In this document: piece after piece, positions 25-48,095 of the stretch
Numbering within the stretch: the stretch's first letter is position 1
Layout: each line of letters begins with the position of its first letter
Source: an uncultured Ignavibacteriota bacterium
GTDB lineage: Bacteria; Bacteroidota; Ignavibacteria; Palsa-1295
Length of the DNA stretch: 64,000 nt
Direction: 5' to 3'
Assembly (NCBI GenBank): GCA_903900335.1
Contig: CAIUMP010000007.1
Span: 1-64,000, forward strand
The notes under the pieces: generated by a model
What the model was told of the DNA's origin: nothing
The model's database searches: none
Seen by the model: only the letters and a program-made list of their open reading frames with translations
Program-made: the position numbers and the translations under genes

Positions 25-1185
25 ATGAAAGCAAACATGTATTTCGCGATTGCGGCATTCAGCGTTGTTACGCTGTGCGGGATAAGGACGATCTCCGCAC
101 AATCCCCTCGAAGTCGAGCAAGGATGCTCGACCTACGCGCTCTGGATATATCCGGTTGCGCAGATCGCGTCTGGAGCACTGGCACTACGGTCAATGCTCA
201 AGCATGGAGCGGCGGAATATCATATTCTGCCACCTCTGGTGCGGCACGCCTAAGCTGGATAGCCCCACCGACGGACATCGGCTGCGGAGAAGGGCGGGGA
301 GGAGCCGGAACTAAGAAAGGCTTAGACGCAAAGGTGAGTGGCGTCACCAATGATAGTTCAGATGCCTGCACGAATTCTTACATTGTAGGCTACTTAGCCG
401 CACGAAATTCTCAATGGCAGGTTGCACTCGATACACTCAAACGTTTCATTGAAACATGCCCGCACAATGAGAACGCACCTCGTGCAATAAGCTTCCTGGG
501 TGACGCGATGGCTCATCTCGACCATGGAGATAGTCTGTTTCGAGATAGCTACCTCCGTTGGTTGGAGTCCGTTCTTTATCTGAATACCACAAATTCTGAG
601 TACTTTTGTCAATGCGTGCAGCAAATTGCTGGTGCATTGCCTTTTCCCCGCGATAAAACGGCGGGTTATGTCTCTCGCAATACGAACATGAGCCTTGCCG
701 TTTATCGCTGGCTTATCTTGAACACAACATGCGACACACCTTATCTTTGGCAGTTGTACAGCCAATCGCGTGAGACTCAGCTCAGCCAATGGGAGAACAA
801 CCCCAACGCATACGTGCTTGACACCACGTTGCCTCCTCTGAGCAAGTGGGGCCTCGATACAGTGCTGGCGAAGCACTTCCAGTATGCGTTGGTAAAAGGT
901 GGCTCGGATAATTTCTCCAGCATCGTGCCTTCCTACAACGTTACGCAGAATCCGACCGACGGCGCAACGGAGCTTCGGTTCACCCTCGGCTCGGATGCGT
1001 ATGTTAACGTGGAGGTTCATGATGTTCTTGGCCGCCTCGTTTCCGGAGATGCTATTGGGAAGATACTCAGCGTCGGAGATCACCGTGTCCCCATAGACAT
1101 CAGCAATTATCCTGCTGGTACGTATTATCTCAGCATCACACTCGGCACCGGCGAAGTGCGCACGGTGAAGCTGGTGAAGAAATAA
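25..1185 (+). CDS. Secreted protein with T9SS C-terminal sorting domain
   Basis: A 386-residue exported protein of unknown function. Residues 1-25 form a signal peptide ending ISAQ. The middle (about 110-300) is predicted from composition to be helical and Cys-containing, with no domain I recognise. The last ~80 residues have the look of a T9SS type-A sorting domain: an NPTDGATELRFTL start, a VLGRLVS turn, NYPAGTYYLSI and a basic VKLVKK end. This implies Sec export, outer-membrane passage by the type IX system and surface attachment or release. The frame stays open upstream to base 1, so an earlier start is possible, but the signal peptide begins naturally at this ATG. A hairpin 17 bp after the stop probably ends transcription. 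Confidence 0.8.
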   Translation: MKANMYFAIAAFSVVTLCGIRTISAQSPRSRARMLDLRALDISGCADRVWSTGTTVNAQAWSGGISYSATSGAARLSWIAPPTDIGCGEGRGGAGTKKGLDAKVSGVTNDSSDACTNSYIVGYLAARNSQWQVALDTLKRFIETCPHNENAPRAISFLGDAMAHLDHGDSLFRDSYLRWLESVLYLNTTNSEYFCQCVQQIAGALPFPRDKTAGYVSRNTNMSLAVYRWLILNTTCDTPYLWQLYSQSRETQLSQWENNPNAYVLDTTLPPLSKWGLDTVLAKHFQYALVKGGSDNFSSIVPSYNVTQNPTDGATELRFTLGSDAYVNVEVHDVLGRLVSGDAIGKILSVGDHRVPIDISNYPAGTYYLSITLGTGEVRTVKLVKK

Positions 1186-3982: not shown

Positions 3983-6190
3983 TTACCGAACCTCCAAACC
4001 CGCCTCCGCCTCCGGCGAAACGATGGTCACCACTCCCTTGGCATCATTGACTGCCAGAAGCATCCCATTCGACTCATTCCCCATCAGCTTCGCGGGCTGC
4101 AAATTTGCAACGACCACGATCGTCTTTCCAACCAGATCTTCCGGTGCGTATTTCTCACCGATTCCGGCGACGATCTGCCGTTTTTCGTCTGCACCTAAGG
4201 AGATCTGAAGCTTGATGAGCTTCTTGGATTTTGGAACGCGCTCGGCTTCCAGCACGGTCGCCGTGCGAAGCTTGATCTTCTTGAAGTCGTCGATGGTAAT
4301 TAGCTCGGAACCTGTAGCTGCGGGGTTTCCCTTCCCATCGCTCGACGCTTTCGCCACAGCGGTCGGCGCGGCGACAGCTCCACCGCGAGCAGCTCCACCG
4401 CGAGCAGCTCCACTGCGAGCAGCTGCTTCGACGGCCATCGTTCGGAGTCTGACCAATTCAGACTCCACCATCTCATCCTCGATCTTGCTAAAGAGGATGC
4501 CGATAGGCCCAAGCTCCGTTTGGCCATGCAATTTCGGCTCATGTGCGTTTGCCCAGGTCTCTTCTGTGAAACCATGACCAAGCGTGTTCATGATACTCGC
4601 GGATGCGGTCGGCGTAATAGGTGCGAAATATACGGCGAGTGCTCTTAGGGCTTCCAGGCACGTTCGGATCACTTTCGCCGCCTCTTCTTTGTTTTCCTTC
4701 GCAAGCTTCCAGGGCTCTGCATCGTTGAAGTACTTATTCGCCATGCGAGCGAGATCCATTGTCTCGGAGGTCGCCTCTCGCAGCCGGAATCGCTCATAGA
4801 GAGTAGCGATCTCGTTTGCGCGAACACCGAAGGCGGCCAGCAGCGCGTTGCCCGCATCATCGAGCTCCTTACGGTTGCCCATGATCTTGTTCTCGAAGTT
4901 GCGCGATGCAAACGTTAGAACACGGTTGGCGAAGTTGCCGAAAATGTCCGCAAGCTCATTGTTGATCCGAGCCTGGAATTCCTTCCATTGGAAATCCGAG
5001 TCTTTTTGCTCTGGCATCATTGTCGCCAATGCATAACGAATGACGTCAGAGGGATACCGCTCTAAGATCTCATGAAGTTCTATTACCCACCCTCGCGACT
5101 TCGAAAGTTTCTGCGATTCGAGATTCATAAACTCATTCGCTGGTACGTTCTCCGGGAGAATATACCCTGACCGTGGTGCGTCGGGCGAGGGCGCCCGACC
5201 TACGGAGGTAGACTCGTTGTGTGCCATCAGCATCGCCGGGAAGACGATGGTGTGAAAGACGATGTTGTCTTTGCCGAGGAATGCGATCCACCTGGTCTCG
5301 CTATCCTGCCACCACGTGCGCCAGTCGGCGGTATCTTCGGCTGCGTATCGGATTCCTGGATTGTTGATCGGGTCGAGACTTTCTTTGGTCGCGCTGATAT
5401 ATCCGATAGGGGCATCGAACCACACATACAGAACTTTGCCTTCTGCTCCTTCGAGCGGCACGGGGATCCCCCACGTCATGTCCCGAGTGATCGCGCGATC
5501 ATGAAGACCGGCCTTTAGCCAACTGCGGGCGCCTTGTAACACGTTGTCCTTCCATCCACTCTGATGGCTCTCGATCCAAGTTTCCAATTGCTGTTGAAAT
5601 CGCGAGAGTGCGAAGTACCAGTGCTTGGTAGCACGAACGACAGGCTTTGAGCCAGTCACCGACGAGCGCGGATTGATGAGCTCGGTTTGATTGAGATAGG
5701 TACCACAATTTTCGCACTGGTCACCGCGTGCATCTGGGTTGGAACAAACAGGACACGTGCCAGTGACGTACCGATCCGGCAGGAACATCTGCGCCTGTTC
5801 ATCATAGAACTGTGGTGCATCGTGCGGGACCAGGAAGCCGCCGTTGTACAGGTCGAGGAAGAACGCTTGTGCGGTCTCTCGGTGGACGTCGCTCGATGTC
5901 CGCGCATAGTAATCGAACGACATCCCCAGCTTTTCAAAGGAGCTTTTGGCCAGTGCATGATTACGATCGACGACAACCCGTGGCGGAACACCCTCCTTTT
6001 CGGCAGAGATCGTGATTGCTGCTCCGTGTTCGTCAGAACCACAGATGAAGAGCACGTCCTCGCCGGTCAACCGCTTATATCGCGCGAAGAGGTCAGCCGG
6101 AATGTAACAGCCCGCCAAATGGCCGATGTGGAGTGGAGCGTTAACCGACGGCAGTGCCGCAGTGATCAGTGTTCGTTTGAAATCTGGCAT
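3983..6190 (-). CDS. metG: Methionine--tRNA ligase
   Basis: Methionyl-tRNA synthetase, 735 residues from the ATG chosen at 6190 (upstream in-frame codons do not match the family). Class I signature HIGH at 21-24; KMSKS loop as KLSKSRG near residue 360; Zn knuckle CPVC...CENC; the WFDAPIGYIS block; a C-terminal tRNA-binding OB domain (last ~110 residues) as in the longer bacterial and archaeal-like forms. Two oddities are visible. About 16 extra residues (ESTSVGRAPSPDAPRS) sit between AMLMAHN and GYILPENVPANEF, blocks that are normally close together, and they are encoded by a palindrome. The linker before the OB domain contains a threefold 15-bp tandem repeat (about 4375-4425; AARGG-like residues). 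Essential for translation, so both insertions must be tolerated. Confidence 0.95.
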   Translation of the reverse strand: MPDFKRTLITAALPSVNAPLHIGHLAGCYIPADLFARYKRLTGEDVLFICGSDEHGAAITISAEKEGVPPRVVVDRNHALAKSSFEKLGMSFDYYARTSSDVHRETAQAFFLDLYNGGFLVPHDAPQFYDEQAQMFLPDRYVTGTCPVCSNPDARGDQCENCGTYLNQTELINPRSSVTGSKPVVRATKHWYFALSRFQQQLETWIESHQSGWKDNVLQGARSWLKAGLHDRAITRDMTWGIPVPLEGAEGKVLYVWFDAPIGYISATKESLDPINNPGIRYAAEDTADWRTWWQDSETRWIAFLGKDNIVFHTIVFPAMLMAHNESTSVGRAPSPDAPRSGYILPENVPANEFMNLESQKLSKSRGWVIELHEILERYPSDVIRYALATMMPEQKDSDFQWKEFQARINNELADIFGNFANRVLTFASRNFENKIMGNRKELDDAGNALLAAFGVRANEIATLYERFRLREATSETMDLARMANKYFNDAEPWKLAKENKEEAAKVIRTCLEALRALAVYFAPITPTASASIMNTLGHGFTEETWANAHEPKLHGQTELGPIGILFSKIEDEMVESELVRLRTMAVEAAARSGAARGGAARGGAVAAPTAVAKASSDGKGNPAATGSELITIDDFKKIKLRTATVLEAERVPKSKKLIKLQISLGADEKRQIVAGIGEKYAPEDLVGKTIVVVANLQPAKLMGNESNGMLLAVNDAKGVVTIVSPEAEAGLEVR

Positions 6191-6286
6191 TCTTGTAGCT
6201 TGCTTTCCTGGGTTGTTCGAACCCTTTAACAAGGGATTCCTTGGAAAGTTGTACAAAGCGAGCGGGGGACGAGGAGAAAGGGGTAT

Positions 6287-47633: not shown

Positions 47634-48095
47634 ATGTTACAAGAAGGAGACAAGGCGCCGGATTTTTCGGCGAAAGACGATAAAGGCAACGACGTATCCC
47701 TCAAGGATTTTCGTGGCAAGAAACTCGTCCTCTATTTTTATCCGAAGGATGACACCACGGGCTGCACCGCCGAAGCCTGCGATTTTCGCGACAATCTTGC
47801 GCGGGTCAAACGGAAAGGTGCCATCGTCGTTGGTGTCAGTCCCGACAGCGAGAAGAAGCACGCGAAGTTCAAGACGAAGTATGAGCTGACATTCCCGCTT
47901 CTCGCAGATGAAGAGAAGAAGATCGTAACCGATTACGGCGTGTGGAAAGAGAAATCCATGTATGGGCGAAAGTACATGGGCGTAGAGCGCACAACATTCA
48001 TCATTGATGAGAAGGGGAAGATCGAGAAGATCTTTTCGAAGGTGAAGGTTGCGGGTCACGTCGATGAAGTGCTCGCGGCACTGTCTCCAATGTAA
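47634..48095 (+). CDS. bcp: Thioredoxin-dependent thiol peroxidase (Bcp/PrxQ)
   Basis: A 153-residue atypical 2-Cys peroxiredoxin of the Bcp/PrxQ group, which reduces peroxides with thioredoxin. Peroxidatic Cys44 in TTGCTAEACDFRD and resolving Cys49, five residues later, are both present. Length and the GVSPDSEKKHAKFKTKYELTFPLLAD block are standard. Cytoplasmic. It lies 5 bp after a lipoprotein gene and 6 bp before a GNAT gene. Confidence 0.95.
   Translation: MLQEGDKAPDFSAKDDKGNDVSLKDFRGKKLVLYFYPKDDTTGCTAEACDFRDNLARVKRKGAIVVGVSPDSEKKHAKFKTKYELTFPLLADEEKKIVTDYGVWKEKSMYGRKYMGVERTTFIIDEKGKIEKIFSKVKVAGHVDEVLAALSPM

Follow-up and report, generated by a model that had tools for sequence, protein, structure and literature searches.

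The stretch of DNA analysed here (64,000 nucleotides, henceforth the window) carries on its minus strand the essential gene metG, whose product is a full-length methionine--tRNA ligase (MetRS; NF001100, 792 bits) that probably starts at 'MPDFKRT', residue 23 of the open reading frame. Within this gene lies a short palindromic segment resembling the REP elements of other bacteria, and a second copy of it is found elsewhere in the window. The features are as follows:

3983 to 6256, minus strand: metG, methionine--tRNA ligase (MetRS), recognised as an open reading frame with a profile match
5165 to 5212, minus strand: expanded MetRS loop, 48 nt between AACGAG and TAT, as against 18 nt in G004, a congener
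5180 to 5203, minus strand: REP core of 24 bp, GTAG + GTCGGGCG CCCT CGCCCGAC in the coding-strand reading
5200 to 5203, minus strand: GTAG tetranucleotide tag (CTAC on the plus strand)
5192 to 5199, minus strand: 5' arm of the REP hairpin (coding strand)
5180 to 5187, minus strand: 3' arm of the REP hairpin (coding strand)
113 to 132, minus strand: another REP copy, lying in frame directly behind the signal peptide in a putative secreted protein, SAQSPR[SRARMLD]LRA

The residues inserted in MetRS are STSVGRAPSPDAPRS. A perfect hairpin joining 5180-5187 with 5192-5199 had been predicted from the letters alone, and its arms are exact: each is 8 bp long, they are 100% complementary and they enclose a 4-nt loop. 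On the coding strand the tetranucleotide GTAG, which the original prediction lacked, sits 5' of this hairpin, and the copy in metG is a single unit. The 26-mer at 5180-5205 is unique in the window, and shuffles of the window give an expectation of 0 matches with up to three mismatches. As RNA the hairpin folds at -17.1 kcal/mol (z of -3.0 for 33 nt; z of -1.65 for the 56-nt segment). An AlphaFold2 model of the protein (28 sequences, mean pLDDT 80) presents the insert as a low-confidence loop after the helix at residues 329-351 in the numbering of the open reading frame, and pLDDT falls below 50 over residues 356-361; the modelled loop would lie on the surface, distant from the active site. Separately, metG holds at 4371-4424 a 15-bp tandem repeat of 3.7 copies, in the linker preceding the C-terminal tRNA-binding domain, and aligned congeners are about 10 residues shorter at this linker.

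The original prediction had likened the palindrome to intergenic elements, and a census of the source genome (G000) by pattern and model searches bears this out. A degenerate form of the palindrome recovered 33 places in the 4.0-Mb genome, while the same pattern read backwards, used as a control, recovered 0. A covariance model, built from 26 places with the metG copy among them, recovered 55 places at E<0.05, of which many are intergenic and several intragenic; this figure may be a lower bound, as 150 of the 1890 first-look candidates were scored. The GTAG tag is present in all 26 aligned copies, an invariance to be expected because the copies were picked partly for bearing TAG. Covariation at one stem pair was not forced by the search pattern: this pair is G-C in 14 copies, A-U in 11 and unpaired in 1. 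Both a tag at one end of the palindrome and many dispersed copies in the genome, two marks of a GTAG-tagged REP, are present. Inverted pairs also occur (e.g. C38:2517/2581), recalling REPINs and BIMEs, from which the metG copy differs in being single. No Rfam family was found at the metG insert. Pattern matches at three further loci (L008, L014 and L088) are without the tag and have a poor or no model score, and are not relied on here.

Comparison with the MetRS of six congeners places the insertion in time. Four of them (G001, G004, G005 and G006) are without any insert and have 21 residues from the FP to the PANE motif, as against 31 in the source genome; the remaining two carry different repeats at the site. 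The insert of about 16 residues proposed originally is therefore real but smaller in net terms, as the congeners already have 6 residues there: the gain is 10 residues, or 30 bp, in frame. With the residues absent from congeners and the element multi-copy in its genome, the insert is, as had been anticipated, neither a conserved part of the family's MetRS nor a sequence without further copies. The best explanation is that the REP, a palindromic repeat of the non-autonomous kind, entered metG in the lineage of the source species after its split from the sampled congeners. A near-match search of plasmids found no near match to metG.

Four further species of this family also have a long MetRS loop, of 37 (G002), 32 (G003), 28 (G008) and 52 residues (G012), and each loop contains a distinct sequence with further copies elsewhere in that genome. 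Counting the metG copy, TTCATCC-type units occur at 30 places in G002, CCCTCTC...GAGAGGG at 2 in G003, AAGTCCG-type units at 3 in G008 and GTCATTGCGAGCGAAGCGAAGCAATCTC at 7 in G012, and the backwards controls for all four gave 0. Support is thinnest for G003 and G008, with 2 and 3 places respectively; kindred forms of the G003 repeat are also found in G002 and G006, and more widely within G003 itself. The TTCATCC and AAGTCCG units are simple-repeat-like, so that slippage, as opposed to insertion, could have produced them. All five metG inserts preserve the reading frame, with the proviso that the genomes with named records come from metagenome binning and the remainder are mostly fragmented, such that misassembly is possible for any single one. 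Taken together, these loops suggest that this site in metG tolerates repeated invasion by dispersed repeats.

A survey of the class shows how unusual such loops are. Of about 137 other genomes in the class, nearly all have a loop of 15-16 or 20-22 residues, as read from matched spans (span length alone for genomes whose sequences were not fetched), and the fetched outliers from outside the family have 15 to 21 residues, with the exception of G015. Among 80 further named loci, 75 of the 76 readable loops have 15, 16 or 20 residues; the lone exception, L238 from Ignavibacteriae bacterium palsa_1295, shares its insert with G003 and was taken to be the same genome. Within the family itself most sampled members are without any insert in this loop. 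The MetRS of G015 (L194), from outside the family, has about 30 residues in this loop, GYNHYVSSKGGGSDKSGES.

REP copies are not confined to metG. At least five further ones lie in frame in other genes of the source genome, the best supported being those in ispH, metH and a FAD/Fe-S oxidoreductase. The first two of these are missing in congeners. The oxidoreductase repeats the pattern of MetRS: one loop holds the REP in the source genome and other repeats in G001, G002 and G003, i.e. four types in four congeners. These inserts recur elsewhere in the genome set, the other listed places of the G001 insert being in G002 and G006. REP copies are likewise present in two TIR-TPR genes, the comparison being clearer for the second, and a copy in a putative LD-carboxypeptidase is based on an alignment with solved structures only. 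Three candidates were set aside: the ABC transporter copy (L010), as the shortfall in two congeners is only 2 residues; the copy in an aldehyde dehydrogenase (L178, E 0.11), which is weak and has no clear extra stretch relative to solved structures; and the acyl-CoA ligase copy (L173), also weak, with a small excess only. In the family of putative secreted proteins (window 113-132; L003, L103, L104 and L171) a REP in the opposite orientation stands right after the signal peptide, SAQSP[CRARTPD]LRA, and the mature parts of these proteins are widely divergent.

The genome contains six Y1_Tnp matches that might account for mobility. The gene at C1:48435 scores best against the REP-associated tyrosine transposase profile (REP_Tyr_transpos) at 53 bits, short of the curated cut-off of 80, and REP-like sequences are found near it at 47712, 47771 and 48966. 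Judged by its sequence it is a candidate REP-type transposase gene, whose product may have moved the metG copy. Three other Y1 proteins pass the IS200/IS605 cut-off, among them that at C44:208008, which has a REP within 300 bp.

The empty sites, the kept frame and the unrelated repeats together fit repeated insertion, with survival only where the protein tolerates it. We envisage that an HUH (Y1) REP-associated transposase would mobilise REPs at the single-strand level, and that insertions into genes would mostly be purged by selection. The survivors would be insertions that lengthen the gene by a multiple of three nucleotides, bring no stop codon and fall in a flexible surface loop, amounting to near-neutral peptide additions; in MetRS the permissive site would be the loop that links the helix following FHTIxFPAM to the strand ILPxNVPANE. 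The surviving insertions would be neutral, and the MetRS would work normally. On the best reading, then, a few permissive surface loops are where selection lets near-neutral in-frame insertions persist; jointly with this mechanism, we put the probability that the metG segment is a GTAG-tagged REP element inserted in frame at about 85%.

Three other explanations were weighed. The loop DNA might be a sequence-specific target, the hotspot then arising from targeting and not from survival. Several elements do use one codon neighbourhood (around CAY AAY GAR), but the repeat families differ, so that a shared target is not expected, and a second gene of unrelated sequence displays the same pattern; we regard targeting as unlikely. 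It is more doubtful still that the insert is selected, its mRNA hairpin or extra peptide regulating or modifying MetRS: the stability of the hairpin and the use of the same loop in five species would fit such a role, whereas the peptides added in the five show no relation in sequence or length (about 8 to 32 residues), two of the other repeats lack a hairpin of the REP kind, and most sampled relatives in the family do without any insert. Ordinary lineage-specific expansion of a loop that happens to be palindromic deserves hardly any credence, for although MetRS loops vary, as in G015, a 24-nt match, GTAG included, to a genome-wide family refutes chance for the REP core, and 0 matches would arise by chance in the window.

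Intragenic GTAG and CGTC REPs, some of them in tRNA synthetases, are known in other bacteria (Di Nocera et al. 2013, PMC3733652), and the GTAG REPs described there have in common with the source genome the tag, the short palindrome, a mostly intergenic distribution with some copies in frame in genes, and RAYT-type transposases, for which the gene at C1:48435 is the candidate here. In that study recB of two Xanthomonas species holds different REPs at about the same site, with different sites in other genes; here a single loop of MetRS holds five types of repeat across one family, and a second loop holds four. The original prediction had drawn an analogy with Rickettsia palindromic elements, which are about 150 bp long, insert in frame in unrelated genes and add a peptide (review PMC10969869). 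The analogy holds, in that palindromic repeats lie in frame in unrelated genes here too and add peptide. The element itself is another: its anatomy is that of a GTAG-tagged REP of 24-30 bp with a net gain of 30 bp, whereas the Rickettsia kind measures about 150 bp and encodes a conserved peptide, a separation made by the description of those elements and not by their sequence. R. conorii RPE-4 and RPE-6 have themselves been placed among the intragenic CGTC repeats (PMC3733652). The closest known kind is hence the intragenic GTAG REP, rather than the Rickettsia element. A literature search that covered few subscription papers returned nothing on point for metG with palindromic elements or for Kapabacteria with REPs.

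The source genome adds a lineage of Bacteroidota, with relatives named Ignavibacteriae and Kapaibacterium, to the groups with intragenic REPs. Beyond this, it seems reasonably probable that single permissive loops of housekeeping proteins in one family serve as recurrent landing sites for several unrelated classes of dispersed repeats, with orthologues diverging by convergent insertion of different mobile repeats at matching residues. A loop with several independent insertions, together with the empty sites of sister species, provides a comparative test of how repeats enter coding sequence, and the comparison can address the choice of site as against survival, and the cost of the added peptides.
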